A stretch of 32,765 nucleotides of DNA from contig WRCW01000005.1 in NCBI GenBank assembly GCA_009783755.1, positions 1 to 32,765 of the forward strand, given 5' to 3'. Position numbers and translations under genes: made by a program. The stretch is from Spirochaetaceae bacterium. Lineage in GTDB: Bacteria > Spirochaetota > Spirochaetia > CADAEX01. Of this stretch, positions 3,446 to 31,497 are shown piece by piece. Under the pieces are notes generated by a model. That model searched no databases. It was not told the DNA's origin and saw only the letters and a list, made by a program, of their open reading frames with translations. Within the stretch, counting starts at the first letter, position 1. Each line of letters opens with the position of its first letter.

Positions 3446-5215
3446 TTATTTTTCCTTACTTGTTTTAGCATTACTCTTTTTGGCTTCAAGATATTTAACT
3501 ACAGCAGGAGAAATTGTTCCAAAAGAACCGTATTCCTTAATATCTTTTGCAAAAATACCTTCAATAACTTCAAAAGCAGTAGGAGTAAAAGGTTGTGGCA
3601 ATTCTTTTATTATCAACTCAGTAATTTTATCAATATCATCCTTTTCATCTGCGTAAAATATTAACAATTCTATTATTTTCACTATATCTAACAAATTTTT
3701 CTTCTTTTCGAGTATCTTGCTCAGTATCCTTTTTATTTCTATATGTCTATATTTTGAATAGCAATCATAAATTAATAAAGGATTTGACTCGGAGACTTTT
3801 TCTAATAAATTTTTTGAATTATCGTAAGTAAATATCTCAAATAATTTTTCTTTCATAAAATGACGCAAACTAACTGAAATAATATCTTGAGCATCAGCAA
3901 CAATATAACCAGCATCAACAGCGTCCTCTATTTGTTCTTTATTTATTAGAATTGCTGGAAGACCAAAAGTAGGGTCTTTAATACATTTACCATCAATCTT
4001 ATTTTTTACACGTCCATTTTCTATACATAAATATTTATTATATTCAATTTCATATTTTATCATCTCTTTGCCACATATATAAAAGGAGTATTCAAATTCT
4101 TTTAGATTAATATTATCCCTTATACGTATTCTTGGTATACATATACCTGTCTCTCTTTCAATTTCTTTATGTATCAATGAAATTCTTTTGAGCAAATTAT
4201 TTTCAAAATATTCATCAACCAGATGTATTAAGCCCAAACCAATTTCTAGCCGTATTATATCATCTTGAATAATTTTCATTTCATTGAGGTTTTGGTTTAT
4301 AGACTTAATCTTTTTTATTATTTCTTCATTAACAGGTTTTAAATCTTGATATAGTATTTTTTTCTCTTCATTAACTGATTTTCTTAAATAAAAACTCACA
4401 GTCATAGATAGCAGTAAAACAGGCAATAAAAAAATTACGCCGCTTCCTATAGCAAGAGGAATATATATTTTTATTGCAGAAAAGATCTCTCCGCCGTGAT
4501 GCAGAATCTCAATTAAGATACCTCCAAGAATTATGATAAAAATTGAAAGTATTATTATTTTATAATATCCAGATACGTAATTAAATCCTCTATCAATTGC
4601 TGAATATAGATTTACTTCTTTCTGAAGTCTCTTTCTATTTTCCATTGCCTCATATTCTGTTATTATGCAACTGGCAAGCTCTGAATTGATTAAGATACTA
4701 TTCTTCGCCATTTTATCAAGAGAAAATCTTGCAGTAACTTCTACAGTATAGGCAGTTCTCTTTAATACTATAACAACAAAAGAAAAAGCTAATAAAAAAC
4801 CTGCAGAGCCTGCGATTAGGTGTACGATATTTCCTGTCCCAGCCACAAGATAAGAAGTACCCCTTATCACCCAGTCATTAAGATCTGAGCCCTCCTTCAA
4901 AACAAGCAATATAACAGGCATTTTAACCACTGCTGTGTTAGAAAATATAAAAATCGATATCAGTATATGAAATATAGAAAAGTCCGTTGTCATATTTTTT
5001 CTACATAACGTCATTATATGAAAAATCATAATTACAAAAAGCAGATTCATTACAATAAAAATATCCATCACTATCGCAGAACGTAAAATTAGGGATGCTG
5101 ATGATACACTAAAAACTACAATCACCCAAATACATATTAACGTAAGAACCCTAATCACCCTAATGCCGGCGAATTTGTTTTTTAATCTGATTAATAAATC
5201 TTTATATTTGCTCAT
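3446..5215 (-). CDS. flhA-like: Divergent full-length FlhA/FHIPEP-family export-gate homologue
   Basis: ORF extends to 5287, but MSKYKDLL at 5215 has AAGGAG upstream. FlhA-like membrane half (VEVTARFSLDKM...EYEAMENRKRLQKEVNLYSAID) and FlhA_C-like half (LEIGLGLIHLVDE...IRIRDNINLKEFEY...DPTFGLPAILINKEQIEDAVDAGYIVADA). Confidence 0.85.
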   Translation of the reverse strand: MSKYKDLLIRLKNKFAGIRVIRVLTLICIWVIVVFSVSSASLILRSAIVMDIFIVMNLLFVIMIFHIMTLCRKNMTTDFSIFHILISIFIFSNTAVVKMPVILLVLKEGSDLNDWVIRGTSYLVAGTGNIVHLIAGSAGFLLAFSFVVIVLKRTAYTVEVTARFSLDKMAKNSILINSELASCIITEYEAMENRKRLQKEVNLYSAIDRGFNYVSGYYKIIILSIFIIILGGILIEILHHGGEIFSAIKIYIPLAIGSGVIFLLPVLLLSMTVSFYLRKSVNEEKKILYQDLKPVNEEIIKKIKSINQNLNEMKIIQDDIIRLEIGLGLIHLVDEYFENNLLKRISLIHKEIERETGICIPRIRIRDNINLKEFEYSFYICGKEMIKYEIEYNKYLCIENGRVKNKIDGKCIKDPTFGLPAILINKEQIEDAVDAGYIVADAQDIISVSLRHFMKEKLFEIFTYDNSKNLLEKVSESNPLLIYDCYSKYRHIEIKRILSKILEKKKNLLDIVKIIELLIFYADEKDDIDKITELIIKELPQPFTPTAFEVIEGIFAKDIKEYGSFGTISPAVVKYLEAKKSNAKTSKEK

Positions 5216-5298
5216 AATTTTACTCCTTACACACTCCATTAAACGGTTTGCTGTTTTCTGGTTAAGATCCCTATACTTTATTTTCAAATATATACTTT

Positions 5299-5325
5299 TC
5301 AGTATGTCAAATAGCGATATACTGA
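5299..5325 (-). promoter_or_regulatory. 27-bp palindromic element, single copy upstream of the flhA-like gene
   Basis: TCAGTATGTCAAATAGCGATATACTGA; matches the element repeated elsewhere in the window. Confidence 0.65.
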
Positions 5326-5332
5326 AAAAGAT

Positions 5333-7150
5333 TTAGCTTTTATCTGCCACTGAAGAAACTTTTATCTTCCCTTGATCACTCATCTGCTCCTTGATTTCTT
5401 CGGGTACAGCGACAATCGCTCTGCTGTCCTTCTCCACCGCGATACGGCAGAGATCTGCTATTTTGAATTTCTCCGGTACATGCTTAAGAGCTATTCCGGC
5501 TTTTTTTACCGCGATGTGGCAAAGTTCTTTGGTTTTTAATTCTTCCGGTACATACTGAAGAGTCCAACCAGCATCCTCTACTGAAATACGACAGAGTTTT
5601 GCTGTTCTGAATGCTTTTGGTACACACTGAATCACTGCGCTATTTTCCTTCACTGCGATTTGGTAAATCTTTTCAGTTTTGAATTTCTCCGGTATATCCT
5701 GAAGCACCCAACCATCCTTCTTTACCGCGATTTGGCAGAGTTTTTCGGTTTTGAATATTTTTGGTACATATTTAATTGCATGACCACTCTTTTTCACAGC
5801 AATATGACAGAGTTTTTCAGTCTTTAGTTCTTCCGGTACATACTGAAGCGCACCGCCATACTTTGCTACAGAGATTTTACAGAGTTCTTCAGTTAGTAAT
5901 TCTTCAGGCACATAACAAAGTGCCCAGTCCGAATAACCACCTTTTACAGCAATATAGCAGAGTTCTTTTGTTTTTAGTTTTTCTGGTACATACTGAAGTG
6001 CATAACCCATGGTATCTTTTTCTATGGCGATAGTGCAAAGCTCTTTTGTTTTTAAATGTTCCGGTACATACTGAAGCGCTGTACCAACATTTTCCACAGC
6101 GATTTGGCAGAGCTTTTCGGTTTTGAGTTTTTTTGGTACATACTGAAGCGCTACGCCATACTTCTTTACAGCAGTACGGCATAATTTTTCAGTCTTAAGT
6201 TCTTTTGGCACACACTTGAGAGCATTACCTTTCTGCATTACAGCGATACGGCAGAATTTTGAAGTCTTTAATTCCTTTGGTACAAACTCAAGCGCCCAGC
6301 CATCAATTCCCACAGCAATACGACAGAGTTTTTCTGTCTTAAGTTCTTTTGGCACCAACTCAAGTGCCCGGCCAAACTGATTCATGGCAGTGTAACAGAG
6401 TTTCTTTGTCTTGAGTTTTTTTGGCACATATTTAAATGCCCAACTAATCTGTTCTACCGCAATACGGCAGAGATCTGCTGTTTTTAGCTCTTCCGGTACA
6501 TACAGAAGCGCCTCACCATTCAGTGTCACAGCAGTAAGGCATAACTCTTTGGTTTTTAATTCTTTTGGTACAAATGCAAGCGCTCTTGTCATTTGTTTCA
6601 CAGCAAAATAACAAAGTTCTGTAGTTATGAATTCTTTTGGTACGAACATAAGTGCATCTGCATTCTGCGCCACAGCAATTCTGCTAAGTTCTTCACTTTT
6701 AAATTTTTCGGGTACATACTGAAGCGCTTCTCCATTTTTCTCCACAGCAATATGGCAGAGTTCTTTTGTCTTAAATTCTTCGGGTACAGCGATGATTGAT
6801 CTTCCATCCTTTTGTACAGCAATGTGACAAAGTTTTATAGTTCTTAATTTTTGCGGTACATACTGAAGCGCCACTCCACATTCTTCCACAGCGATTTGGC
6901 AGAGTTCTTTGGTTTTTAATTCTTCCGGTACATGTTGAAGCATCCATCCATTGTATTCTATAATAGCTCGACAAAATTTGTAGGTTTTTAATTCTTTTGG
7001 TACAAACTCAAAAGCCCAGCTATCCCGCGCTACCGCGATATGACAAATTTTCTCTGTTTTGAGTTTTTTTGGCACATATTTAAGCAATTTACCATTTTGT
7101 TTTACTGCCCCAAGTGCTTCTTTTTCTGTTGTGATTTTCATGTTATCCAT
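5333..7150 (-). CDS. DUF4116-type repeat protein (about 23 tandem 24-aa repeats)
   Basis: Repeats of the form [24 protein letters not shown]; N-cap MKITTEKEALGAVKQNG. Confidence 0.88.
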   Translation of the reverse strand: MDNMKITTEKEALGAVKQNGKLLKYVPKKLKTEKICHIAVARDSWAFEFVPKELKTYKFCRAIIEYNGWMLQHVPEELKTKELCQIAVEECGVALQYVPQKLRTIKLCHIAVQKDGRSIIAVPEEFKTKELCHIAVEKNGEALQYVPEKFKSEELSRIAVAQNADALMFVPKEFITTELCYFAVKQMTRALAFVPKELKTKELCLTAVTLNGEALLYVPEELKTADLCRIAVEQISWAFKYVPKKLKTKKLCYTAMNQFGRALELVPKELKTEKLCRIAVGIDGWALEFVPKELKTSKFCRIAVMQKGNALKCVPKELKTEKLCRTAVKKYGVALQYVPKKLKTEKLCQIAVENVGTALQYVPEHLKTKELCTIAIEKDTMGYALQYVPEKLKTKELCYIAVKGGYSDWALCYVPEELLTEELCKISVAKYGGALQYVPEELKTEKLCHIAVKKSGHAIKYVPKIFKTEKLCQIAVKKDGWVLQDIPEKFKTEKIYQIAVKENSAVIQCVPKAFRTAKLCRISVEDAGWTLQYVPEELKTKELCHIAVKKAGIALKHVPEKFKIADLCRIAVEKDSRAIVAVPEEIKEQMSDQGKIKVSSVADKS

Positions 7151-7203
7151 CCTTATAAAGGAAATTATATCTCTTCGATAAATCTGGTCTTATTTTGCAA
7201 TAG

Positions 7204-7230
7204 TTACTATGTCATATAGTGCTAGGGTGA
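7204..7230 (-). promoter_or_regulatory. 27-bp element, left unit of divergent pair
   Basis: TTACTATGTCATATAGTGCTAGGGTGA; inverted relative to 7268-7294. Confidence 0.7.
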
Positions 7231-7267
7231 TAAGTTTTTGGAATATTTTGCAAAAAATTAATTTTTA

Positions 7268-7294
7268 TCACTATAGCATTATATGACATGGTGA
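7268..7294 (+). promoter_or_regulatory. 27-bp element, right unit of divergent pair
   Basis: TCACTATAGCATTATATGACATGGTGA, then TATGTT 12 nt after ATGACA. Confidence 0.7.
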
Positions 7295-7401
7295 AAGAGG
7301 TATGTTTTAAAAAATAAGAATAAAGAACAGTGCTTTTGAACGGAAAACAGTGAAATATTTTGTGGGGTGTAAGTAGTCTGGAGAATATAGGGGGTGAAAG
7401 T

Positions 7402-7632
7402 ATGGGTAAAGAAAAAAGATTAGGGGATATGGCAGGACAAGAGTTAACACAAGCGATTATTGAACAACTTGGTGGTGAAAAAGGAATAGATGCTATTCTA
7501 ATGGAACAAGAAAAATTAGCACAAGAAGCGTTTGCAAAAATGAGAGTTCGAAAACTAGCTCCTGCAGATGGTTCAAAAAACAAAAAAAATAATGCTAAAA
7601 CAAATAAGGAAAATAAGATTAAGGATAGATAA
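7402..7632 (+). CDS. Small basic-tailed protein (76 aa), GSKNKK family
   Basis: ATG at 7402 with GGGGTGAAAG upstream; C-terminal KLAPADGSKNKK shared with 21319-21510. Confidence 0.65.
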   Translation: MGKEKRLGDMAGQELTQAIIEQLGGEKGIDAILMEQEKLAQEAFAKMRVRKLAPADGSKNKKNNAKTNKENKIKDR

Positions 7633-7666
7633 AATAAGAATAAATAAGCAGGAGGATGGAGATAAA

Positions 7667-8938
7667 ATGTCTGTAGTTTTAAATCAAAATCAATTACCCG
7701 CAGCGACAACCATTGAAAACGGGGCAAAAGACTTTGGAGCTGTTTGTGATCATCGGAATATAAGAAATTATGATTTTAAAAAGCCCAATAAATTCACAAA
7801 AGAACAGATTGATGCTATTTCATTAATACATGAAACTTTTGCCCGCCTGGCACGAACCAGCCTTTCTGCCCAGCTTCGTACCGTGGTACATGTAAACCTT
7901 ATTTCTGTTAATCAGCTTACTTATGAAGAGTATATCTCATCCATAGCAATGCCAACTACACTAGCCATTATTGATTTTGATCCTTTAAAGGGGAGTGTTA
8001 TTCTGGAAATTGATCAGTCAATAACGTTTTCAATAATTGATTTCCTTGCCGGAGGCGCTGGAGAAAAATCTGAATTCCAGCATGAACTTACTGATATTGA
8101 AAGATCTATCATGGAAGGGGTTGTTGTCCACTTGCTTGGGAATTTAAGGGCAGCGTGGAGCTCTGTAATTGATTCAAAGCCACGACTTTGTCAAATTGAA
8201 ACAGATTCAAGATTTGCACAAATCGTGCCCTCTGCAGAAATGGCAATACTGGTAACAATGAAAGCTAAAGTCAGGGAAGTGGAGGGGAGGATCAATTTGT
8301 GTATTCCCTACATGACCATGGAGCCAATCATTGGAAAACTTTCAGAACAATACTGCTACTCAGCTTGTTGCAAAGATTCTCCATTTAAAGCTATGCCAAT
8401 TTTTAAAACTATAATTCCTGTAAAATTAACTGCTGAAATATTAAAGCGTAAATATTCTATCAAAGAAATATCTGACTGGAAAGAAGGAACAATTTTATTG
8501 CCAGTACGTCCTTTGGCTCCTGATTCTTGCTTTTTAAGGATCGGGGAGAGAAATATATGGCAATGTGAAATAATAAAAGATACAAAATTGTTACTCAGGC
8601 AAATTAAAGTAGTAAAGCATGTTGAGAAACTGTTTGAAAAGGAGGATTCAAAAATGGAAATAAATAATATGACTGGTTTGCTTAAAGCAGGTATAACAAT
8701 TTCTGTAGAGCTTGGTTCTGCAGAGAAGACAGTTAAAGAAGCCATGGCAATAGGCGAAGGAACAATTATTGAACTTGATACATTAGCCGGAGAACCAGTG
8801 GATGTAAAAGCAAATGGTGTTCTTTTTGGCAAGGGAGAAGTAGTTGTGATAGAAAAAAACCTTGGTGTGAAAATTACCAAAATAATATTTGACCAGGTTG
8901 AAGAAGAAGAAAAAATAGAAGGGAGTCAGAATGATTAG
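7667..8938 (+). CDS. fliM/fliN-like: FliM-FliN fusion, flagellar C-ring paralogue
   Basis: ATG at 7667 after AGGAGG. FliM: FTKEQIDAISLIHETFARLARTSLSAQLRTVVHVNLISVNQLTYEEYISSI, GGAG, CIPYMTMEPIIGKLS; C-terminal FliN/SpoA: ISVELGSAEKTVKEAMAIGEGTIIELDTLAGEPVDVKANGVLFGKGEVVVIEKNLGVKI. Confidence 0.92.
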   Translation: MSVVLNQNQLPAATTIENGAKDFGAVCDHRNIRNYDFKKPNKFTKEQIDAISLIHETFARLARTSLSAQLRTVVHVNLISVNQLTYEEYISSIAMPTTLAIIDFDPLKGSVILEIDQSITFSIIDFLAGGAGEKSEFQHELTDIERSIMEGVVVHLLGNLRAAWSSVIDSKPRLCQIETDSRFAQIVPSAEMAILVTMKAKVREVEGRINLCIPYMTMEPIIGKLSEQYCYSACCKDSPFKAMPIFKTIIPVKLTAEILKRKYSIKEISDWKEGTILLPVRPLAPDSCFLRIGERNIWQCEIIKDTKLLLRQIKVVKHVEKLFEKEDSKMEINNMTGLLKAGITISVELGSAEKTVKEAMAIGEGTIIELDTLAGEPVDVKANGVLFGKGEVVVIEKNLGVKITKIIFDQVEEEEKIEGSQND

Positions 8939-9959
8939 CGCTGCTAGCGTAATGTTATTGGCTTTATTATTGCTAATGTTAATGGTTCTCATACTTGGAG
9001 TTTTGTTCTTTTATTTTAAAAAAGATGTATCGCGACAACTATTTGAAACAAAAAAAACATTGGATAATATGCAAGTTACTTATAATAATTTTTTTAAATC
9101 AACAAACCCTTTTGCTAACTCTTCCGAAGATGAATCAGGATATGTTGATGTCCTTGATTTTTTATCTTCTGCTATAAAAAATCATATTGATAATGTAGTT
9201 GGAGTCATCCGTTTTTTATTAGGACAGAGTGATTGTTCAAAAATTGCTGCTTTTTTTATTGCAATTGGTTCAAAACTATCAGTTGAGATTTTTAAGAATC
9301 TTCAGGAAAATGAAGTCGAGATTATAACATTTGAGGTAGCGTGCTTTGAAAAGATAAATAGTGAGCAAAGAACAACGATTCTTAAAGAATTCTATGAATT
9401 ATTTATGGCTAACCAATATGTTTTTACCGGAGGTATTGATTATGCCCGTGTTCTTCTTGAAAAATCATTTGGAACGATGAAAGCAATTGATATAATTAAT
9501 CGATTAACTTTAAGTCTTAAAACTATGCCATTTGATTTTGTCCGTAGAGTTGAACCTATGCATTTATTAAATTTCATTCAACAAGAACATCCGCAAATAA
9601 TTGCTCTTATTCTCTCACACCTGGAACCTGATAAATCTGCAATTATATTAGAAAAATTACCATCTGAATTACAAGAAGAAATTATTCGGCGAATAGCAAC
9701 AATGAAGAAAACAAGTCCTGAAACTTGCAGAGACATTGAAAGAGAATTAGAAAAAAAGTTATCAACTTTATCAATAGAAGATGAGCCTGCTGTGGGTGGA
9801 CTTGAAAGTGCTGTCAAAATATTAAGTCTTATTAATTCTGGTTCTGAAAAGCAGATAATAAAAATCCTTAAAGATAAAGATCCGAAATTAGCTGATAAGA
9901 TCGAGAAAAGTGGAATAAAAAAATCAGGAGATAGCAAGGAATGGTTTTATGAAAAATAA
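8931..9959 (+). CDS. fliG-like: Membrane-anchored FliG N+M domain protein lacking FliG_C
   Basis: N-terminal hydrophobic helix MISAASVMLLALLLLMLMVLILGVLFFYF; FliG_N (FTGGIDYARVLLEKSFGTMKAIDIINRLT); FliG_M (EHPQIIALILSHLEPDKSAIILEKLP...GGLESAVKILSLI); overlaps the previous gene by 8 nt. Confidence 0.92.
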   Translation: MISAASVMLLALLLLMLMVLILGVLFFYFKKDVSRQLFETKKTLDNMQVTYNNFFKSTNPFANSSEDESGYVDVLDFLSSAIKNHIDNVVGVIRFLLGQSDCSKIAAFFIAIGSKLSVEIFKNLQENEVEIITFEVACFEKINSEQRTTILKEFYELFMANQYVFTGGIDYARVLLEKSFGTMKAIDIINRLTLSLKTMPFDFVRRVEPMHLLNFIQQEHPQIIALILSHLEPDKSAIILEKLPSELQEEIIRRIATMKKTSPETCRDIERELEKKLSTLSIEDEPAVGGLESAVKILSLINSGSEKQIIKILKDKDPKLADKIEKSGIKKSGDSKEWFYEK

Positions 9960-11988
9960 TAAGAAAAATAAAGTTTTTACATTTGAGGATATTATTTTTC
10001 TTGATGATTTTAGTTTGCGAAGAGTTGTAAAGGAAATAGAAGAAGAAGATCTGGAAAATGCTTTTATAGGAGCAGAGGAGCAAGTAGTGGCAAAGGTTTT
10101 AGAGTTCATGTCCTACTTGTCGGCGAAAGAACTTAACCAGTTGATTAAAACATCCGGACAGGATGTTTTAAAATCTTCCATTGAATTGAGCAGAGAAAGG
10201 ATTGGCAATATAATAACGAGCTTTGTGGGGAGAGGCAGAATTCTTTCTCCCGATGGCTGGAGAGTGCCGGCGAGAGATGGCGTTATTCGCCAGATTGAAG
10301 AAGCAATACAAACAGGGCATCTTGATTTGTATAATTGGTATTGCCAAAAAAATGCCTATTCCGGTTTTGAGGAAGTAGTAAAAAGCGCATTTGATTCATT
10401 CAAAGACCGCGAAAAAGAGCTTTCTGCTATTACTTCTCTTAAAATAAAAGGAGAAATCCTTTACAGCGCCGAATTGCTATTTAGCAGGAATTCGCTTGAA
10501 CATCTTGTTATTAGTTATGATAATATTTTGATTCCTTGTACATTGCTTCCTGCATCGCTTTTAAAACCGATTGGACAATGTAAAAACTTGAAAAGCTTGG
10601 TTTATTCCACGCCATATTTGGACTTGCCTGAATGGATATTTGATTTAACATCATTGACAGATCTTTTTCTTGGCGGTAGTCATCTTGATGGGAAAAGTAT
10701 TACTGCTTTATCAGAAAGGTTAGGTAATCTGATCAATCTGAAAACATTATCTTTAAATTACATGGACATTGACTGTGTTCCCGATAATATCGTGAATCTT
10801 GAGCGATTGGAATATTTAGAGATTTCAAGGTGCCGTATAACATCACTTCCTGAAAATATTGGAAAACTTACAGAGCTTAAAAGGCTTGATATAAGCGGAA
10901 CCTCTGTTGCAAACCTACCGGAGAGTATTGGGTCTCTTACAAAACTTTTAAAACTCGATATAAGTAATACACTTATTACGCACCTTCCTGAAAGCATTGC
11001 AAAACTTATATCGCTTAGGAAACTTGACATAAGGGATACCTGCATACGCGAGCTGCCTCTTTTTCTTGAAAATCTGTATGGACTAAGCATTTGTATGTAT
11101 GGACTTGATGCAAAAATACCTCCTGCGCTTCCGCAGAATAAAAATATAACCTTCAACCGCGAATATAAAATAGAAACACTTCCTCCTCATGACCTGAATT
11201 TAGATGAGTTTATTCGTGCATATTATATGTTTATTCAGGATATATATTATGTTAATCCAATGGCAAGAAGAATGGGGCTTATGGAATTAGAAGATTTTTT
11301 TAGAGATTTATATGAAAAAAATGATTTTTTTGGAGTAGGTATGATGTTGGTAATTGATGGAACAGATCCGGAAAATATTCGTCATATTTTGTCTTGTAAG
11401 ATTGAGCATGAAAACTGCTTTTTAAAAAAGAAATTAAGAAAGATACAGATGGAAGGAATTCTGGGAATCCAGAGGGGCGATGATACAATAGAACTTATTT
11501 TGTACCTAAATAATCTTGTTGATATTGATGGGAATAAAGTTACCCTTTTGTGTAAAGATTACTGGCAAGGAAAACAGAATGCTTTTGAAGACCTTGAAGA
11601 TATTCGCCATGAACTTCCAAAAGAGAGGGAAGAGGTTGCGTTTATCAAGCGGGCAACTAAGATACACAAGATTGCCTGGGACAATGGGCTTTTGGCGCTG
11701 GAAGCAGAATGGAACAGAGAAGGATATGATAATAATGACATATTTGAATATGGGATTCCTCTTGTGATTGATGATTATTTAGGGGCGCATCATATCGAAA
11801 GCCAACTTAACGCCATGATTGAGCGGGAACATAACCCATGGAAAAAGAAAATGGGGCAGGTGAAAAAAACAGCAGTCATGGCTATTCTGGCAGGGGATAT
11901 TCCAAGAATGGTTGAGGAAAAATTATTGTGTTACTTTGATGACAATGTTTTAAGGATTTTAAAAGCGGATCAGGCACGGGAAGAATAG
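9949..11988 (+). CDS. FliG_C - LRR - (MotA cytoplasmic-like)x2 chimeric protein, copy 1
   Basis: FTFEDIIFLDDFSLRRVVKEIEEEDLENAFIGAEEQV (FliG_C); leucine-rich repeats (SLPENIGKLTELKRLDISGT); MARRMGLMELED...LVIDGTDPENIR...EGILGIQRGD and a second related unit. Starts 11 nt inside the FliG N+M gene. Confidence 0.85.
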   Translation: MKNNKKNKVFTFEDIIFLDDFSLRRVVKEIEEEDLENAFIGAEEQVVAKVLEFMSYLSAKELNQLIKTSGQDVLKSSIELSRERIGNIITSFVGRGRILSPDGWRVPARDGVIRQIEEAIQTGHLDLYNWYCQKNAYSGFEEVVKSAFDSFKDREKELSAITSLKIKGEILYSAELLFSRNSLEHLVISYDNILIPCTLLPASLLKPIGQCKNLKSLVYSTPYLDLPEWIFDLTSLTDLFLGGSHLDGKSITALSERLGNLINLKTLSLNYMDIDCVPDNIVNLERLEYLEISRCRITSLPENIGKLTELKRLDISGTSVANLPESIGSLTKLLKLDISNTLITHLPESIAKLISLRKLDIRDTCIRELPLFLENLYGLSICMYGLDAKIPPALPQNKNITFNREYKIETLPPHDLNLDEFIRAYYMFIQDIYYVNPMARRMGLMELEDFFRDLYEKNDFFGVGMMLVIDGTDPENIRHILSCKIEHENCFLKKKLRKIQMEGILGIQRGDDTIELILYLNNLVDIDGNKVTLLCKDYWQGKQNAFEDLEDIRHELPKEREEVAFIKRATKIHKIAWDNGLLALEAEWNREGYDNNDIFEYGIPLVIDDYLGAHHIESQLNAMIEREHNPWKKKMGQVKKTAVMAILAGDIPRMVEEKLLCYFDDNVLRILKADQAREE

Positions 11989-12022
11989 AAAAATGTTTCC
12001 TGGTATTTTATGGAGATAAGTT

Positions 12023-12913
12023 GTGATAACGCGAGAGGTTATAAATAAACATATTTTAAATATGTCTGAAGAACGATTAAAAAATTGGATCATCTCTCAC
12101 TTTAAAAGAAAGCATAAAGAAATGATAGTGGGTGATTACAATAACTTTATCGAATACTTAAAAGAAGAGCATTTAGTTACAGATGGTATTTGCTCAAGTG
12201 GTGTTGGTAAATCAATATTAAAAAAAATATTAAATGCTTATGAACTTAAAGATATAAATCCTGATGAATTATATGAACATATAAAATTAAACGCTACATT
12301 CGTATTAACTCAAGACTCTGGCTGGGAAATAAAAGAAATATCTCTTTTAAGTGAGACTCCAAACATTGAAAATATAAAATGTTATTTTGCTGAATTTATA
12401 TGGCTTAACAAATGGGGGTATGAACTTTCTAAATATAAACATATTTATAAAATAATGTATTACGCTAATAAGGTTATATGGATAGGGTACGCAGGAGATT
12501 ATTTTGAGCCACATTACTTTATAATCCAAAAAAATAAAATATATGGATTAAAATACAAGCATAAATGCACAAGAAGTAAAAGCTTAAAAATTATGAAAAA
12601 TCTCGACAATGCATTCGATGAATTGTTGCATGTTGGACTGGATGATATAGCACAACAATATAGAGAAAAAAAATTTAATATTATTAAAACTGAAATCGAC
12701 TTATCTGAATATTTTTATAAAGGTTTTTTTTACAAGGGTATTTTATTTGACAGAAATTGGAAAGATGAAATATCTGTTATAAAAAAAATCAGTTTTAATA
12801 ATGGATTATTAAAAATAGAAATCGAAAATTTAACATATCCTCATACTGGATATGCATTATTGGATTTGGAAAATAGTAAAGTAGTCGAAGTTGATAAACC
12901 AATGGTTTTATAA
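12023..12913 (+). CDS. Hypothetical protein (296 aa)
   Basis: Intact ORF between the two chimeric genes, same strand; no family recognised. Confidence 0.65.
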   Translation: MITREVINKHILNMSEERLKNWIISHFKRKHKEMIVGDYNNFIEYLKEEHLVTDGICSSGVGKSILKKILNAYELKDINPDELYEHIKLNATFVLTQDSGWEIKEISLLSETPNIENIKCYFAEFIWLNKWGYELSKYKHIYKIMYYANKVIWIGYAGDYFEPHYFIIQKNKIYGLKYKHKCTRSKSLKIMKNLDNAFDELLHVGLDDIAQQYREKKFNIIKTEIDLSEYFYKGFFYKGILFDRNWKDEISVIKKISFNNGLLKIEIENLTYPHTGYALLDLENSKVVEVDKPMVL

Positions 12914-12948
12914 AATATGAGTTTGGCTAAACAGTAAGGAGAGTCAAT

Positions 12949-15171
12949 GTGGAGAAAAAAGTTTTTACATTTGAGGATATTATTCATCTTGATGATCGTG
13001 CTATATGGAGGATTCTGCGGGAAACAAATATTGAATATCTGCGAGATGCTCTTATTGGAGCTGAGGAAACGATATTAGAAAAGATATATAAAAATATCTC
13101 ACCTCGTATAATAGAAAGATTAAAAAAGATGGTGAAAGAAGCTGAACAGGATTATATATCTCAAGATACCATTAACGAGAGAAGAGGAGGAATTGTCTAT
13201 CATACTATAGTGGGGCTTGCGACAAAAGGAGAAATTGTTTTGCCCGATAATCTAAAACTCCCGACGAGAGGATACAAAGCTCATGCACAAGATAGCAGTA
13301 GAATATTGACGAAAGATAACGTCGTTCATCGGATTGAAAAAGCAATACAAACAGGTCATCTTGATTTATATAATTGGGATTGCAAAGAAAAGCCAATTTC
13401 TGATTTTGAGGAGACAATAAAAAATGCATTTGATTTATTCAAAGGCCATGAAAAAGAGCTTTCTGCAATTACTTCTCTTGTAATTAATGGAGCGATCCTT
13501 TATGGCGCTGAACTGCTATTCAGCTTAAATACACTTGAAGATCTTGATATTAATTATAGGGGCACCTCGAAACATGGGATACCTCCTCGCAACATGCCGC
13601 AGGTATCGCTTTCAAAACCAATTGGGGAATGTAGAAACTTGAAAAAGCTTTCTTTTTCTACACCATATTCAGGGTTACCGGAATGGATATTTAGCTTAAC
13701 ATCATTAACAGACCTTTGCCTGGGTGATTATTGGTTTGAAAATAAAAGCATTATTAGTTTACCGGAGAGCCTAGGGAATCTGAGCAATCTGAAATTATTA
13801 TCTTTGAGATTAATGGAAATTACCTCTCTTCCGGACAGTATAACAAATCTTAAGCACTTGAAATACTTGGAGATTTCATCGAGGAGAATAATGTCGCTTC
13901 CGGAAAGTATTGGAAACCTTACAACTCTTGAAGAGTTGCATATAGACATACCTATTAAAGTTCTGCCGGAAAGTATTCGCAATCTTACAAACCTTTTAGA
14001 ACTTACTATAAACTATACTAATATTATATACTTGCCGGAAAATATTGGCAGCCTCACAAACCTTGTAAATCTTGGATTAATTTCTAACAAATCAATGGAA
14101 AAACTTCCTGATGCCATTGGCAATCTTTTATCACTTAGGAGAATGTCTGTTTGTTGGTCTGCTATAAAAGAATTACCAAAAAGCATGGCAAACCTTAAAT
14201 CCCTTAGAGAACTTGCTATACGCTATACCGGCATACAGGAGATTCCTTCTTTCCTTGGAAGCCTATCAGATCTAACTATTTCGATGTCAGGACTAGATGC
14301 AGAAATTCCTCCTGAGCTTTTACAAAATAAAGATATAAATATTTATCCCAACCCAAAACATAAAATAAAAATACTACCTCATCACGAAATGAATTTTGAT
14401 GAATTCATTCACGCCTATTATGAGTTTATTCGTGATGCTTATTATTATTCCTGTATGGCGAGGAGAGAAGGTCTATTGGCACTGGAAGAATATTTGAATA
14501 ATTCAAATGATTTTTTTAACATTGGATTAAGATTAGTCGTTGATGGAACAGATCCTGAGCTTGTACGAAAAATGCTTACATGCAAGCTTGAACGAGAACA
14601 TGACTTTCTGAAAAATAAACTTAGACAGGTGCAGATGGAAGCACTCTTAAGTATTCAGATAGGAGAGATCCCGGAAGAACTTATTTTACGACTTAATCAA
14701 CGTGTTGATATTGATGGCAATAAAGTAACTCCATTGTGCAATGATTATTTGAAAGGAAATCTTAATGCGCTTGATGATCTCGAAGATCTTCATCATGAAC
14801 TCCCACCGGAACGGGAAGAGGTGGCTTTTATCGAGCGAGCTGTTAGTATATCTGAGAAAGCCAGAAGAGAAGGGATACCGGCACTGGAAGATGAACGGAG
14901 CAGTGAAGGGTACGCTGAGGGAGATATTTTTGAATATGGGCTTTCTCTTATAATAGATGATTTAAGCCCACGTTATATCGAAGCAGTACTGGATGCAATG
15001 ATTAAGCGGGAACGCTGTCCATGGAAAAAGAAAATGGGGCAGGTGAAAAAAGCAGCAGTCCTCTCCATTCAGTCCTATGATAACCCGCGCATACTGGAGG
15101 AACATTTAATGTGCTACTTTGACGACGATGTCCGCAGCTTTTTAAAAGAAGCTTGCTCCAGGGAAGAATAG
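12949..15171 (+). CDS. FliG_C - LRR - (MotA cytoplasmic-like)x2 chimeric protein, copy 2
   Basis: GTG start with AAGGAG upstream; VFTFEDIIHLDDRAIWRILRETNIEYLRDALIGAEE...TKGEIVLP; LRRs; MARREGLLALEEY...LRLVVDGTDPELVRKML...MEALLSIQIGE; KARREGIPALEDE...KKAAVLSIQSYDNPRILEEHL. Confidence 0.88.
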   Translation: MEKKVFTFEDIIHLDDRAIWRILRETNIEYLRDALIGAEETILEKIYKNISPRIIERLKKMVKEAEQDYISQDTINERRGGIVYHTIVGLATKGEIVLPDNLKLPTRGYKAHAQDSSRILTKDNVVHRIEKAIQTGHLDLYNWDCKEKPISDFEETIKNAFDLFKGHEKELSAITSLVINGAILYGAELLFSLNTLEDLDINYRGTSKHGIPPRNMPQVSLSKPIGECRNLKKLSFSTPYSGLPEWIFSLTSLTDLCLGDYWFENKSIISLPESLGNLSNLKLLSLRLMEITSLPDSITNLKHLKYLEISSRRIMSLPESIGNLTTLEELHIDIPIKVLPESIRNLTNLLELTINYTNIIYLPENIGSLTNLVNLGLISNKSMEKLPDAIGNLLSLRRMSVCWSAIKELPKSMANLKSLRELAIRYTGIQEIPSFLGSLSDLTISMSGLDAEIPPELLQNKDINIYPNPKHKIKILPHHEMNFDEFIHAYYEFIRDAYYYSCMARREGLLALEEYLNNSNDFFNIGLRLVVDGTDPELVRKMLTCKLEREHDFLKNKLRQVQMEALLSIQIGEIPEELILRLNQRVDIDGNKVTPLCNDYLKGNLNALDDLEDLHHELPPEREEVAFIERAVSISEKARREGIPALEDERSSEGYAEGDIFEYGLSLIIDDLSPRYIEAVLDAMIKRERCPWKKKMGQVKKAAVLSIQSYDNPRILEEHLMCYFDDDVRSFLKEACSREE

Positions 15172-15228: not shown

Positions 15229-16725
15229 TTATTCTGCTTTTGGCAGTTTTTTAATTTTTTCTTTTAGTTTTATAGGCATATGCCTGATAGCCCACTTGTT
15301 TTGCTTTACGGCAATCAAGCAGAGTTTTTCTGTTTTGAATTTATCAGGAACATATAAAAGAGCTTCACCGTTCTGCTTTACAGCAATTAAACAGAGTTTT
15401 TCGCTCTTGAGTTTTTTTGGTACAAATTGAAGTGCTTTGCCATCTTTCTTTACAGCAATACTGTAGAGTTTTTTTGTCTTTAATTTTTCAGGTAAAAACC
15501 TAAGCGCGTCGCCGTCTTTTTCTATAGCGATCTTACATAATTCTGTGCTTTTTAGTTCTTCCGGTACAGCTTTAAGCGCGTTGCCATTTTTCTCCACAGC
15601 AATACGACAGAGTTCCGCTGTTTTTAAAACTGTTGGTACAAGTAGAAAAGCACGGGGATCTTTTTCTGTTGCTATTTTACAAAGCTCTGCGGTTTTTAGT
15701 TTTTCCGGTACATCCTCAAGCGCTAAGTGATATTTTCCCACAGCAATAAAGCACAGTTTCTCTGTCTTTAATTTTTCAGGTACACATTTAAATGCCCATC
15801 CGTTCTTCTCTACAGCTATGTGGCATAGTTCTTCTGTTATAAATTTTTTTGGCACAAACTTAAGCGCAGGCTGGAGTACTGCGGCATCATTCTTTATAGC
15901 GATTAAGCAGAGTTTTTTTGTCTTAAGTTCTTTTGGTACAAACCTGAGCGCCCCACCTTTTTTCTTTACAGCAATTAAACAGAGTTTTTCGCTCTTGAGT
16001 TCTTTTGGTACAAATTGAAGTGCTTTGCCATCTTTCTTTACAGCAATATGGCATAATTCCAATGTTTTTAGTTTTTTTTGTACAAACATAAGCGCTGTGC
16101 CATTATTTTCTATAGCTATTCGGTAGAGCTCTTCTGTTTTGGCTTTTTTTGGAATATATGCAAACGAGTTGCCACTCTTTTTCACAGCGATTTGATATAG
16201 TTCTTTTGTCTTAAGAGCTTCAGGTACAAACTGAATTGCTCTGCCATCATTTTCTACAGCAATGTGGCAGAGCTCTTTTGTTATGAAATTTATTGGAACA
16301 AATTTAAGCACCCAGCCATTTTTCTCCACAGCAATATGACACAGTTTTTCTGTTATGAATTTTTTTGGAACAAATTTAAGCGCATCACCATTTCGATGTA
16401 CAGCAGTATGGCATATTTCTTCTGTCTTATATTTTTCCGGTACATATTTTAGTGTCCAGCCCCCCTGTTGTACAGCAATGAGGCAGAGATTTTCTGTTTT
16501 TAGTTTTTCCGGTACATCTATAAGTGCAACGCAATAATCTTCCACAGCAATACGGCATATTTTCTTTGTTTTGAATTTTTCAGGAACATACATAAGAACA
16601 TGGCCATCATCCTCCACAGCAATGCGGCATATTTCTTCTGTCTTAAGTTCATCCGGTACAATGTCAAGCATCCAACCACCCTTTTTCACTGCTGCAAGCG
16701 CTTCTTTTTTTGTTGTAATTTCCAT
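15229..16725 (-). CDS. DUF4116-type repeat protein (about 19 tandem 24-aa repeats)
   Basis: Start MEITTKKEALAAVKKGG at 16725 with AAGGA upstream (ORF extends to 16794). Confidence 0.87.
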   Translation of the reverse strand: MEITTKKEALAAVKKGGWMLDIVPDELKTEEICRIAVEDDGHVLMYVPEKFKTKKICRIAVEDYCVALIDVPEKLKTENLCLIAVQQGGWTLKYVPEKYKTEEICHTAVHRNGDALKFVPKKFITEKLCHIAVEKNGWVLKFVPINFITKELCHIAVENDGRAIQFVPEALKTKELYQIAVKKSGNSFAYIPKKAKTEELYRIAIENNGTALMFVQKKLKTLELCHIAVKKDGKALQFVPKELKSEKLCLIAVKKKGGALRFVPKELKTKKLCLIAIKNDAAVLQPALKFVPKKFITEELCHIAVEKNGWAFKCVPEKLKTEKLCFIAVGKYHLALEDVPEKLKTAELCKIATEKDPRAFLLVPTVLKTAELCRIAVEKNGNALKAVPEELKSTELCKIAIEKDGDALRFLPEKLKTKKLYSIAVKKDGKALQFVPKKLKSEKLCLIAVKQNGEALLYVPDKFKTEKLCLIAVKQNKWAIRHMPIKLKEKIKKLPKAE

Positions 16726-16753
16726 TTTATTGTTCCTTAAAATAAATATAATT

Positions 16754-17485
16754 TTAATCACTATAGATGATTTTTTCTTTTGGAATATCATCAAAATGCA
16801 TTATGCGTCGTGAAAGTATGATTTTTTGTAAATTGTTGCCTTTCCAAAATGCCGGACTTCCAAGGGCAAATACAGATGCCGGTATTGTAAGCTCTGTTAA
16901 ATTCTTACAACCATCAAATGCTGAGTCATCAAAGGCTGTTACTGATGAAGGTATGATATATGTTTTTGCTTTTTTATTACTCGAATATGCTATGATATTT
17001 TTTTCCTCTTTATCAAAAAGCACTCCATCAATGCTTGTATAATTTGGATTTTGCGGATCTACTATTATATTTGCCAATTTATAGCAATGGTCGAATGCAA
17101 AATCGCCAATGTGTGTTACTGAAGATGGAATCGTAATCTTTTCTAAATTTATGCAATACCGGAAAGCATAATGCTTAATGCATGTTACAGATGGGGGAAT
17201 TATAATTTCTCTTAAATTCATACAATCGTTGAGTGCCATATGCCTAATGGAGGTTACTGCTAATCCAAAGATTTTATCGGGAATAGCTAAAGATAGATCG
17301 CTTTTACAGCAATTGACAAGCTCAAGACTTTCTCCATCAAGTTCAAAATTCATATTATTTTTTTCAAGAGTTTTATTTGTATAGTAAACCTGAATCCCCA
17401 TACGTTTAGCATGATTTTTATATTTTTCTGCTATTTTTTTTGTTTTAAAAGAAACTGTATTGTTCCCATCTGTTAATATATGCAT
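16754..17485 (-). CDS. BspA-type (LRR_5) leucine-rich repeat protein
   Basis: MNLREIIIPPSVTCIKHYAFRYCINLEKITIPSSVTHIGDFAFDHCYKL; start MHILTDG at 17485 preceded by AGGAG. Confidence 0.82.
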   Translation of the reverse strand: MHILTDGNNTVSFKTKKIAEKYKNHAKRMGIQVYYTNKTLEKNNMNFELDGESLELVNCCKSDLSLAIPDKIFGLAVTSIRHMALNDCMNLREIIIPPSVTCIKHYAFRYCINLEKITIPSSVTHIGDFAFDHCYKLANIIVDPQNPNYTSIDGVLFDKEEKNIIAYSSNKKAKTYIIPSSVTAFDDSAFDGCKNLTELTIPASVFALGSPAFWKGNNLQKIILSRRIMHFDDIPKEKIIYSD

Positions 17486-18842: not shown

Positions 18843-20264
18843 TTACCTTATAGTGCATAGCGGTCCCAGATAAAAAGGATCTTCATCCGGGTTTTCCCCG
18901 GAAGATTCGTCTTGCTGTTTAATAGGATTGCTTTCCGAAGTCTTTCCCATTACACAGTTTGTGACTCTTACTCCTAAATTTTCATCTATTACAACAACCT
19001 CGCCATGAGCAACAAGTACATTATTGGCAAAAATATCTATTGGTTCACCTGCCAATTTTTCCAGTGTGAGGATTCTCCCTTCGGACATACTTAATAATTC
19101 TTCCATGGTCAACTCTGTTCTTCCAAGTTCAACAATACATTGGATTTTCATTTGTCCCATGGCTTCTTCCCTGTTCTTTGCTGTTGCGTAGTTTACATTC
19201 TTTTTCATTATGCCGACCTCCTTAAAATCGCATTGTTTTTCGATAATTATTTTTTTGTTAAATACAGGATTTGTTTTAAGTATCCTTGCTGTAAATAATT
19301 GTATTCCATCAATGCAGAGTGTGTATTGGTTTGGATCTAAATTTTCATAGGGATAGATTATTGTCCCGGGCTTCCACTCTGATAATTCGCTATAGAGTAT
19401 TTCTTTTTCAAAAAGTATTGCATTAGCGCTCATTTTAACATTACGCAAAGATTCAGGATTTATACGCTGGCGTTGTTTTGAAGTACCTCCAGTTGAGTAC
19501 CAGTTTTTTCTTGTGAGTTCATCCAGGATACTTTCTAGTGATAGATATGGAATGCAAATGTTTATCATTCCTTCAACACCACAAAATTCAATTTCAATAT
19601 CTATGAGGATAACCATTTCATTTGGCGGGACGAGTTGCACAAATGTCGGGTTTGTTTCAATATGGCTTAGTTTTGGTTTTATAACAGCAAATGGCTCCCA
19701 TGCTGAGCGAAAACATTCCAGTAGTCCAATAACTGGTTTTTGCATTGTAAAATTTTCAAGCGCAGTCAAGGTTATATCTTTCCTGTGTACGAAACCATTA
19801 ATATCACCTGGGCCGCCAAATATTTTATTCAACATGGCAGAATATACCGAAGGATCAATTTCAATGCAGGCAGTTCCACCTGTCTCTTCCATGTTTATTA
19901 TTCCAAGCAATGTAGGTATTGGAATAGAACAGATGAATTCCTCGTATGACAACTGGTCAACAGAGGCAACATGACAATGAACATCTTTTCTGAATTGCCT
20001 GGAAAGATACTCTGTTGCTTTTCGGACAAAAGTTTCATGGATCATGGTAATTGACCGTATTTGTTCTTTGGAAAACTTATCCAGTCTTTTGAAATCATAA
20101 ATTTTTATTTTACGCACATTTTTATAAAATGAATTATAGGCATCTTCTTCGCCTTCCTCGGAAGGAGTGGAAAAGGCTGTAAGCAACTGATCGATTTCAT
20201 TTTGGCTTAGAATATCACATTTAAAAACATCATCAATGATATCCTCTTCTTTGTCTTTTTCCAT
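18843..20264 (-). CDS. fliM/fliN-like: FliM-FliN fusion, second copy, with EIDQLL motif
   Basis: [14 protein letters not shown] near the N-terminus; [46 protein letters not shown]-terminal Spo[61 protein letters not shown]. Confidence 0.93.
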
Positions 20265-20280
20265 AATTACACTCCTTAAC

Positions 20281-21156
20281 TTAAATTATGCCAATATTCC
20301 TTTGCGGATTTTTCCCTGCTGCAATGCTGTAAAGTTCCATACTCTTTATCTCTTCAGGTACAAACTCATCTGACTTTTCATGGTACGCCACAGCAAAACA
20401 GCACAGCTGTAAGCTCTTTAGTTCTTCTGGCACATACCGGATCGCATAACCATTCTGCATCACTGCAATGTAGCAAAGTTCCTTTGTCCTGAATTTTTCA
20501 GGTACATCTCCCAGACCTAAACCATACTTCTTTACAGCTATACGGCAGAGTTTAAAAGTTTTTAGTTCTTCAGGTACAAAATTAAGCGCGCTGCCATCAT
20601 TTTTCACAGCCATAAGGCATAGCTCTTCTGTCTTAAACTTTTCTGGAACATGCAAAAGCGCCCATCCATCATTTTTCACAGCAATGTGGCACAGTTCTTT
20701 TGTTTTAAACTTTTCCGGCACAAGCTCAAGCATACTGCCATCTTTTTCAATAGCAATACGGCATAGTTCTTCTCTCCTGAATTCTTCAGGAACATCTAAA
20801 ATCGTCCAATAATCTTTCTCCATAGCAGAGAGGTATATTCCATATAGTTCTTCACTATTGAGTTCCCATGGCAAAAACTTAAGAGCCTTGATGTTTTCTA
20901 ACAAAGCAGCACAGTATATCTCCTCTGTTAAGAGTTCTTTTGGTATAAGTTTAAGAGCATTTCCATCTTTTTTTGCAGCAATATGACAAAGTTCTGTTGT
21001 CATAAGTTTTTTTGGTACAAACATAAGTGCTCTATAGTCCTTTTCCACAGCAATACGGCATATTTCTGCAGATTTGAGTTCTTCTGGTATAAACAAAAAC
21101 GCCCAAAAGCCTTTTTTTATTGCAGAGAGGGCCTTCTTTTCGCTTGTGATTACCAT
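20281..21156 (-). CDS. DUF4116-type repeat protein (about 10-11 repeats)
   Basis: N-cap [16 protein letters not shown]; repeats [24 protein letters not shown]. Confidence 0.87.
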
Positions 21157-26116: not shown

Positions 26117-28285
26117 TCATGTTAGAAAGCCTATTCTTGTTTCAGGCTTTTCCAGCAGTTCTTCTTCGCAAAAGGTTTTTAGATCGGACAAGCAAGGAAC
26201 TGCTCCACGCAGGATAAAGGAAACCATACTTTTACGAGAGATATTTTCTATCTGACCGCCAGAAAAATCAAACTGTTTTGCCAGTTGAATAGCATCATTG
26301 TCTGCGAGAGCAGGAAGCTGGCTTTTCCATATCATTTTTTTTGACTCAATGTCCGGTTTCCCAAATTCGATCTTATAAAGAAAACGACGCTCAAATGCTT
26401 TGTCAAAATTCATTGTCATATTGGTAGTGGCAATGAGAATTCCATTAAGGTTTTCCATTTCCTGAAGGATAATATTCTGTATGGCGTTCTCGGTTTGAGC
26501 AAGATTGGATCTTGAAATATCTTTTCGTTTACCGAAAACAGCATCTGCTTCGTTAAATAGTAAAATTGGAGTTATTTCTGCTTCTTCAACATAGTCACGA
26601 TAGCGGGTGAAAATTTCTTTTATTTTCTTTTCACTCTCTCCAAACCACATGCTTTTTGTTTCAGAAATATCAACAGCTAAGATATCTCTGCCTGTTTGTT
26701 TGGCAATCTGATAAACTGTTTCGGTTTTTCCTGTACCTGCTTGCCCGGAGAAAAGGCATGCAAAACCTGTTCTCATTCCGGAATCTGAAAGCCGTGTTTT
26801 TATTTCTTTATACGCACTATCGTTAAGGAGAGATATCAACTGCTCTACCTGAGTTCTCTCTTTTGCGTTGTAAAATAATTCTTTAGTATGAATTGTCGAG
26901 GCTCGGATTATATCTTTATGATTGCGTGAAGATTTTATTTTTAATTCTGATAACAGATCATTTTTTATGTTAGTCGTTAGCTTGAATAATTCCCGGTTTC
27001 CAAATCCATTGCTGTTGGCAAATTCAACAAACCCACGAATCATAAGAATATGTTCACCTAATTTAAATTGTCGTCTACTTATCCCAAAGTCAGAATCTTG
27101 CTCATATATGGCTGATATTGTATTGAAATCTAATTCATCACGATCACAGTTAATATATAAATGGCAGAAACGTAGCAGAAGTAAAAAATCTTCTTGGGAA
27201 AGTTCATATCCAAAGATTTTTTTTACAAAGATAAGATGCATATTCTCTTTTAGCAGTTCGTTGATTCTTGTTGAAAGTTCATTATAAGATATCCTGTCTT
27301 GGCAGCACTCTTCAAATAATGAATGCATTCTCACAAACAGTTCAGTATTCGACAAATTTGACTGACTAACAGGTTTGTATTCTTCGTTCTTCATCAGGGA
27401 AACCATTACTTCTTTAGGAATGCTATATGAAGCTACATCGCTTGCAGAGAAACCAAATCTCCTTCGGTTAGATTTGGGGGAAATCCGAATAAGTTTTTTT
27501 TGTTCAAGTTCTTCAAAATCGCTCATATACTGCATAAGTTTTAGTTTACTGCAATCAAGAGATCTGGCGATTTCTCGCAACTCTACCGGAGTGGTTTCAA
27601 ATTCTGAAACAATATGGGAAAATAAAACAGCCTGGATCTGAGAAATATTCAATTTTTGAGTGATATGTTTTATATGCGTCATAGCACTTAAAATAGAATT
27701 CTCAGAAAGATCGTTTTTTTCTGTTAATTTAACAATTTGCTCTACATGTCCCAGAAGATTTAATTCTTTTTGCTTCGTTGTCAGAGCAATGATTTTTTCT
27801 GAAAGTCTCGATATATTATTTCCTTTAATAATACAATTCTCAAGATTGGGAAGGTTATTGATTGTTTCCGGCAATTCAGAAAGCTGATTATAGCTGATAT
27901 CAAGAGAACGTAGAGAGTTAAGTTCTCCAATAGATTCTGGAATTTCCCTTAAATTGTTACACTTGAAATTTAATTTTTTTAGACAAGTCAGCCTGCTTAT
28001 TGATTGTGGCAGAATTGAAAGCTTATTGTAACTAAGATCAATATACTCAAGCTTATCAAGTGAGCATAAAAAGTCCGGTAATTCTGAGATTGAATTTTCG
28101 CTTAACTTCAGAACTTCAAGATATTTTAATTTTTTTACCTCTTCTGGAATTGCTGTAAGTTCAATGTCAGAAAGATCTAAAATACTTAAATGCCTATCAT
28201 GGCATATATTTATAAGACTTTCTGCTTCATTGATAACTTTATTCTGTTCCTGTATGTTTGTCATTTTTTTGCTCCTTTTTTTCAT
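26117..28285 (-). CDS. LRR - AAA+ ATPase fusion
   Basis: N-terminal LRRs (YLEVLKLSENSISELPDFLCSLDKLEYIDLSYNKLSILP); C-terminal AAA+: FSGQAGTGKTETVYQIAKQ (Walker A), ILLFNEADAVF (Walker B-like), ATTNMTMNFDKAFERRFLYKIEF. Confidence 0.9.
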   Translation of the reverse strand: MKKRSKKMTNIQEQNKVINEAESLINICHDRHLSILDLSDIELTAIPEEVKKLKYLEVLKLSENSISELPDFLCSLDKLEYIDLSYNKLSILPQSISRLTCLKKLNFKCNNLREIPESIGELNSLRSLDISYNQLSELPETINNLPNLENCIIKGNNISRLSEKIIALTTKQKELNLLGHVEQIVKLTEKNDLSENSILSAMTHIKHITQKLNISQIQAVLFSHIVSEFETTPVELREIARSLDCSKLKLMQYMSDFEELEQKKLIRISPKSNRRRFGFSASDVASYSIPKEVMVSLMKNEEYKPVSQSNLSNTELFVRMHSLFEECCQDRISYNELSTRINELLKENMHLIFVKKIFGYELSQEDFLLLLRFCHLYINCDRDELDFNTISAIYEQDSDFGISRRQFKLGEHILMIRGFVEFANSNGFGNRELFKLTTNIKNDLLSELKIKSSRNHKDIIRASTIHTKELFYNAKERTQVEQLISLLNDSAYKEIKTRLSDSGMRTGFACLFSGQAGTGKTETVYQIAKQTGRDILAVDISETKSMWFGESEKKIKEIFTRYRDYVEEAEITPILLFNEADAVFGKRKDISRSNLAQTENAIQNIILQEMENLNGILIATTNMTMNFDKAFERRFLYKIEFGKPDIESKKMIWKSQLPALADNDAIQLAKQFDFSGGQIENISRKSMVSFILRGAVPCLSDLKTFCEEELLEKPETRIGFLT

Positions 28286-31483: not shown

Positions 31484-31497
31484 GGAGAGGCGTATTT

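Follow-up and report, generated by a model that had tools for sequence, protein, structure and literature searches.

What might a flagellated cell do with soluble proteins that carry, on one chain, both faces of the contact between the rotor and the stator of its motor? The question is raised by two nearby genes on a contig of Spirochaetaceae bacterium (GCA_009783755.1, contig WRCW01000005.1, positions 1-32,765 of the forward strand); this whole stretch of 32,765 nt is referred to as the window. A preliminary description of the window had read both gene products as fusions of a FliG_C domain, leucine-rich repeats (LRRs) and two cytoplasmic units of MotA without its transmembrane (TM) helices. 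These domain identities leave hardly any room for doubt. The function is more tentative: with a probability of about 0.42, the proteins act as soluble mimics of rotor and stator, that is, as a clutch or brake of the flagellar motor.

Domain architecture of the two chimeras

The membrane-free (TM-less) cytoplasmic unit of MotA is termed cytMotA. The two chimeras and their domains, located with Pfam, NCBIfam and a hidden Markov model (HMM) built from 25 TM-less units, are listed here (aa, amino acids).

9949-11988, forward strand: chimera 1 (W679, 679 aa), FliG_C - LRR - cytMotA - cytMotA (Pfam, NCBIfam, HMM)
9964-10242, forward strand: FliG_C domain of chimera 1, beginning at the hinge (VFTFED)
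11197-11529, forward strand: cytMotA unit 1 of chimera 1, in which the tail after TM4 directly follows the TM2-TM3 loop of MotA (HMM)
11611-11946, forward strand: cytMotA unit 2 of chimera 1, with W as the R90 equivalent (HMM)
12949-15171, forward strand: chimera 2 (740 aa), FliG_C - LRR - cytMotA - cytMotA (Pfam, NCBIfam, HMM)
12952-13242, forward strand: FliG_C domain of chimera 2
14389-14715, forward strand: cytMotA unit 1 of chimera 2 (ARREGLLALE; R90 and E98 equivalents kept) (HMM)
14797-15129, forward strand: cytMotA unit 2 of chimera 2 (HMM)

Both open reading frames (ORFs) are intact and their products are 56% identical. FliG_C was matched at aa 6-98 of chimera 1 (E 1.3e-12) and at aa 2-98 of chimera 2 (E 5.5e-14), exceeding the Pfam cut-off in either case, and Pfam placed the LRRs after this domain in both proteins, in agreement with the preliminary description. 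The C-terminal parts matched the NCBIfam MotA models with E values of 3e-11 and 1.6e-17, in two stretches in the 740-aa protein. They were barely detected by the Pfam MotA model (0.022), probably because the core of that model is the excised membrane region. A sequence search of the PDB with the chimeras returned MotA (6YSF/8UCS, E ~1e-11) and FliG structures (E 2.5e-9). The HMM of TM-less units scored each of the four window units with 127-139 bits, which bears out the claim of two MotA-like units per protein. Pfam detected no NTPase domain in either chimera, which sets them apart from NLR/STAND-like LRR receptors.

The preliminary description had also proposed that TM3 and TM4 were removed and the two remaining cytoplasmic pieces joined, twice over. 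On 38 ordinary MotA proteins the HMM match splits, with model positions ~10-75 falling on aa ~73-135 and positions ~75-112 on aa ~208-246; TM3 and TM4 lie in the ~70 residues left out between them. The TM-less units match model positions 2-114 as a single unbroken stretch. Since the model is broken on ordinary MotA and unbroken on the window units, the deletion of TM3-TM4 is real. No MotA-like TM helix is present in the window units, which thus do not have the four TM helices of a MotA protein. The homology of loop and tail to MotA was recovered in NCBIfam, with the HMM, in PDB sequences and with Foldseek, and the profile of TM-less units matched the MotA chain of the MotAB-FliG complex 8UCS with an E value of 2.9e-25.

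Structure prediction pointed in the same direction. Two window units modelled with AlphaFold2 (AF2) from 12 sequences were all-helical (predicted local distance difference test, pLDDT, 81.6), and the top 17 Foldseek matches of this model in the PDB were all MotA/PomA, with 8UCS as the best (E 1.0e-3, probability 1.00). As the global template-modelling score was only 0.21, for a query with two copies and without the membrane half, the fold match is local and no whole-chain superposition. In an AF2 model of the full chain (two-sequence input), the LRRs and MotA units were modelled and FliG_C was of low confidence.

The residues that contact FliG are widely conserved. Among 46 TM-less units, the equivalent of R90 is kept in 43 and an acidic equivalent of E98 in 42; three of the four window units retain both. 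Unit 2 of chimera 1, to which the ARREGLLALE-type motif had been ascribed as to the others, lacks the conserved Arg (AWDNG). On the rotor side, the torque-helix residues K264/R281/D288/D289 are retained in most FliG_C domains of the simpler family members described below (gene pairs and simple fusions), and the charged residues are largely lost in FliG_C of the LRR type. The window paralogues are under purifying selection: the ratio of non-synonymous to synonymous substitution rates (dN/dS) is 0.36 overall, 0.15 in cytMotA unit 1, where dS is 2.1 and near saturation, 0.30 in cytMotA unit 2 and highest, at 0.63, in FliG_C.

Relatives and their association with flagella

A locus was counted as a member of the cytMotA + FliG_C family if the TM-less MotA HMM aligned over its full length without a break and FliG_C was encoded on that chain or by the neighbouring gene; the window chimeras qualify. 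The genome searches are samples, and the contig scans rest on short peptides. Across the 395 genomes screened from the class, the window genome and a further 12 contain full-length TM-less units, and genome G085 has one degenerate copy. Eight genomes from other families of the phylum contain a gene for a ~250-aa fusion, located outside visible flagellar operons, and 3 of 126 genomes of the Fibrobacteria class carry the family. In total, about 30 carrier genomes were found in Spirochaetota and Fibrobacteria. Candidatus Fibrimonas termitidis and Treponema/Spirochaetales metagenome-assembled genomes (MAGs) are the named carriers, which we take to be termite-associated on the basis of general knowledge and of how the MAGs are named.

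The architecture of the chimeras was previously taken to match no described protein. Neither soluble domains derived from MotA nor their natural fusions to FliG_C are indeed described in Pfam, NCBIfam or the open-access literature searched, and the LRR-cap linker used as a query found no relatives in the genome and viral collections. The architecture is, however, not restricted to the window: the complete single-contig genome G246, from another family, encodes an 805-aa FliG_C-LRR-cytMotA-cytMotA orthologue, whose unit 1 clusters with unit 1 and whose unit 2 clusters with unit 2 of the window proteins. The gene lies near others for cytMotA-DUF4116 proteins and, as in the window, for a protein with the 'WISP' domain and a DUF2779-like protein (L073:17688-19163); the island also contains an orphan FliM, FliM-N proteins and DUF4116.

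The simplest members are overlapping or adjacent gene pairs, in which a protein with a beta domain and FliG_C is followed by cytMotA (L076, L085 and L088; similar in L078 and L086). The overlap of ~4 bp suggests coupled, stoichiometric expression. Fusions of cytMotA and FliG_C of ~250 aa occur in L080, L087 and L138. Two cytMotA units per FliG_C are found in the window chimeras, the 805-aa protein of G246, an 831-aa protein of G207, two overlapping genes of G063, and L087; in G280 and G348 the second cytMotA unit is weak (17.6-20.8 bits) and FliG_C is matched as many as two times. Judged by sequence, the window chimeras are the elaborate end of a phylum-wide cytMotA + FliG_C family. In a FastTree phylogeny, all 38 ordinary MotA proteins separated from all 48 TM-less units with a support of 0.25; at this value, a single origin of the TM-less units is suggested, not proved.

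Further combinations were encountered. Related loci encode fusions of DUF4116 with cytMotA, and G416 of the Fibrobacteria class (L132, L133, L134) contains an array of about a dozen DUF4116 proteins, many of them ending in a TM-less unit and one carrying an ADP-ribosylglycohydrolase domain as well (L132:12774-15914). Some cytMotA units of G215, G410 and G416 have a fused FliM-N/CheY-binding-like motif, with EIDxLL/EIDxLT motifs in L082 (G215), L134:8303-9319 and L136:487-1554; one of these proteins has a weak DnaN-like N-terminal match, and other EIDxLL proteins lie amid BspA-type LRR genes. In Candidatus Fibrimonas termitidis (L090:492-4209), genes for a DO-GTPase, a GAP1-N2/GAP1-M protein and cytMotA-FliG_C follow each other consecutively.

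The family accompanies flagella. Of 30 distinct carriers, 29 have FlhA and one, G702, which is 76% complete, does not; in G063, FlhA is a contig-edge fragment only. The window genome has an ordinary flagellar set on contigs C3 and C16. MotA is present in 14 of the 126 Fibrobacteria genomes, and these include all three carriers. The sampling probabilities of these pairings, calculated without phylogenetic correction, are ~0.008 for the class and ~0.001 for the Fibrobacteria.

A putative motor clutch and its rivals

A clutch, brake or tuner would be the most economical use of such chimeras in flagellated cells. A cryo-electron microscopy study of an engineered MotA-FliG_C fusion reports that two adjacent MotA domains form a pincer required to bind one FliG_C (PMC11302681). 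The tandem cytMotA pair may likewise form a two-jaw pincer, like that with which stators grip a single FliG_C. Where cytMotA and FliG_C come as a simple fusion or a gene pair, the pincer would hold its partner FliG_C, an intact one provided by the same chain or one from the overlapping gene, until binding to sensor repeats (LRR, DUF4116 or others) or concentration sets it free. The LRR and DUF4116 repeats would be sensors or targeting parts. Once released, the pincer could bind the FliG_C domains in the C-ring of the flagellum, and the FliG_C left free could bind stators, with the outcome that the motor is clutched, braked or retuned. Since the torque-helix charges of the window FliG_C are lost, mainly the cytMotA face is expected to act in the window copies; a TM-anchored FliG_N + FliG_M protein and FliM-FliN, both encoded nearby, would tether the complex near the membrane.

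Several points weigh against a clutch or brake. The torque-helix positions of the window FliG_C domains read IRKM and ILQL instead of K/R-R-E/D-E/D, and the confidence of FliG_C in the full-length AF2 model is below 50. Two cytMotA units per FliG_C are not universal: gene pairs have a ratio of 1:1, and in G312 and G386 FliG_C outnumbers cytMotA. Without the pentameric ring in the membrane, cytMotA by itself may have little affinity for FliG_C. The cytMotA loci lie outside flagellar operons, and the pairing with flagella could reflect inheritance from a flagellated ancestor.

The genes around the chimeras bear on the alternatives.

3446-5287, reverse strand: divergent FlhA-like paralogue, 613 aa
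5333-7150, reverse strand: DUF4116 repeat protein, 605 aa
7568-8938, forward strand: FliM-FliN fusion 1, 456 aa, with an extra FliN-like C-terminal domain
8931-9959, forward strand: FliG_N + FliG_M + ARM_C (Pfam), 342 aa, N-terminal TM helix at aa 7-25
12023-12913, forward strand: 296-aa protein between the chimeras, no Pfam or NCBIfam family match
15229-16794, reverse strand: DUF4116 repeat protein, 521 aa
17635-18513, reverse strand: 'WISP' domain protein, 292 aa, motif AYWISPxGxLF...GWIRIRY
18843-20264, reverse strand: FliM-FliN fusion 2, 473 aa, keeping the CheY-binding motif and GGPG
20281-21156, reverse strand: DUF4116 repeat protein, 291 aa
21563-24082, reverse strand: WYL regulator adjoining a DUF2779/Cas4-like nuclease
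26117-28285, reverse strand: LRR protein fused to an AAA ATPase, similar to the defence protein IetA
28474-28800, forward strand: short DUF4116 repeat protein, 108 aa
30791-31483, forward strand: 230-aa protein matching phage family phrog_11543 (1.1e-08), adjoining the half FlhA
31474-32262, forward strand: FlhA-like membrane half alone, 262 aa

Neither FliG_N nor FliG_M is present on the chimera chains; both are encoded by the preceding gene (8931-9959), which overlaps the upstream FliM-FliN gene by 8 bp and chimera 1 by 11 bp. Its product shares 52% identity with the genome's own FliG, has the EHPQ motif and ends at the MFxF hinge without FliG_C, where chimera 1 begins. FliG is here divided precisely at its hinge, and the chimeras are its C-terminal half. 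FliM-FliN fusion 1 is 47% identical to the genome's own FliM. The FliG-binding GGxG motif is kept in both FliM-FliN fusions (GGAG in fusion 1), whereas the CheY-binding motif, EIDxLL, is absent from fusion 1 and present only in fusion 2.

This arrangement would also fit a separate, non-flagellar switch complex, in which FliG_N + FliG_M, with its own TM helix in place of FliF, FliM-FliN and the chimeras form a C-ring-like scaffold that signals via LRR and DUF4116. Somewhat doubtful overall, it is a serious rival to a clutch or brake in the window, since FliM, FliN, FliG_N + FliG_M and FliG_C parts are encoded together there: the co-directional, overlapping genes at 7568-11988 supply them in order and split at the hinge, with the EHPQ and GGxG contact motifs retained. 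Orphan switch parts also occur in other islands, namely that of G246, a FliG_M + FliG_C protein adjoining cytMotA in G312, and in G207 a 638-aa FliM-FliG_M-FliG_C fusion (L080:749-2665) located 4 kb from a cytMotA-FliG_C gene. However, almost all carriers are flagellated, most family members consist of cytMotA and FliG_C without FliM or FliG_N/M, and no orphan FliF turned up, although no search was aimed at it. Also unlikely is a self-contained, membrane-free clamp, in which FliG_C gripped by the tandem MotA pincer would be an intramolecular switch gated by LRR/DUF4116 sensors and joined with the TM-anchored FliG_N + FliG_M and FliM-FliN into a non-flagellar signalling ring. If true, evolution would have turned the flagellar torque interface into a protein switch of general use.

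A role in phage conflict is improbable and its support circumstantial. A phage cytMotA would stop the host motor, and LRR and DUF4116 proteins with the same motor-mimic domains would be integrated decoys or sensors. An 86-kb phage contig (L083, IMGVR_UViG_3300005201_000042) encodes a stand-alone cytMotA in a stretch of structural genes for head and tail (major head protein, tail sheath, tail tube, baseplate hub), together with the WISP domain that is common to the window, the G246 island and this phage; the phage WISP sequences are 43-44% identical to those of the window and G246. The TM-less unit lies at L083 7986-8369, and several homologues of the window WISP protein at 3955-7668 and in L146:7277-8404. 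The cytMotA-FliG_C gene of Fibrimonas follows a DO-GTPase and GAP1-N2/GAP1-M pair, which belong to described conflict systems (PMC7159879), and the WYL, Cas4-like DUF2779 and IetA-like LRR-AAA genes are nearby in the window. Yet this phage contig is the single one found in IMG/VR, and most simple cytMotA-FliG_C genes of the phylum stand alone on the chromosome, without recognizable defence genes around them. Neither chimera matched a PADLOC model, and a known defence family was rejected on this basis.

That the chimeras are evolutionary debris, i.e. duplicated and shuffled flagellar genes without selected function, is disfavoured and quite improbable. The genome has collected fragments resembling FlhA and truncated parts (contig C99, window 31474-32262) and FliG_C of the chimeras evolves fast, but both ORFs are long and intact, their dN/dS is 0.36 overall, the domain order and the unit-by-unit grouping are shared with G246, and a ~250-aa cytMotA-FliG_C protein has been retained in other families of the phylum. 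FlhA-like halves or divergent copies, comprising the membrane half or the cytoplasmic half alone, were observed in several cytMotA carriers, namely the window genome (in the window and on contig C99, L049), L149:7593-8366 (G386) and L150:1709-2833 (G398); they adjoin WYL genes (window, G386) or a protein like the window LRR-AAA (G398). Contig C158 of the window genome (L004:1474-2841) encodes a further divergent FliG-like protein of 455 aa (FliG_C, 1.1e-23) outside the flagellar operon.

Contamination or an assembly chimera can be dismissed, even in an assembly of 247 contigs with 7% contamination, by the GC content (0.353 vs 0.354), the tetranucleotide correlation of 0.84-0.85 with the flagellar contigs, the resemblance of FliG_N + FliG_M to the genome's own FliG and the same architecture in the complete genome G246. 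A single-copy oddity was likewise rejected, with relatives in other genomes of the class, in Fibrobacteria and in other families.

Comparison with known systems

If cytMotA binds FliG_C, the contact of rotor and stator could be studied in solution without a membrane pentamer, with the natural fusions as constructs. A class of motor regulators made from the motor's own interface would be added, and this in a phylum that relies on periplasmic flagella to move; a phage would be shown able to carry a stator-mimic gene.

The Fibrimonas locus recalls the DO-GTPase/GAP1 systems of Kaur et al. 2020, a survey that names no FliG or MotA; the link rests on this one locus (PMC7159879). The engineered Clostridium sporogenes MotA-FliG_C fusion of 8UCS (PMC11302681) joins the same two domains in the same order as the natural cytMotA-FliG_C fusions, which differ by the lack of the membrane part and of MotB. 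With the MotA/PomA stator (PF01618, PRK08124; 6YSF, 8UCS), cytMotA shares the TM2-TM3 domain (ARREGLLALE, VVDGTDPE), the post-TM4 tail (GLLSIQxGDNPR) and mostly R90/E98, whereas the chimeras are soluble LRR proteins with two tandem units, lack TM helices and have no MotB partner. Compared with FliG (PF01706; 1LKV, 8UMD), FliG_C of the chimeras starts at the MFxF hinge and the preceding gene provides the matching N, M and ARM_C parts, but the torque domain is on a separate chain, its charges are largely lost in the window and the N + M part is TM-anchored. YcgR, the flagellar brake protein, acts in the cytoplasm at the FliG-MotA interface. The same holds for the clutch protein EpsE (PMC3000366). 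The chimeras are proposed to act at this interface, also from the cytoplasm; their folds are unrelated to those of EpsE and YcgR, and whereas the latter bind the interface, the chimeras are copies of it.

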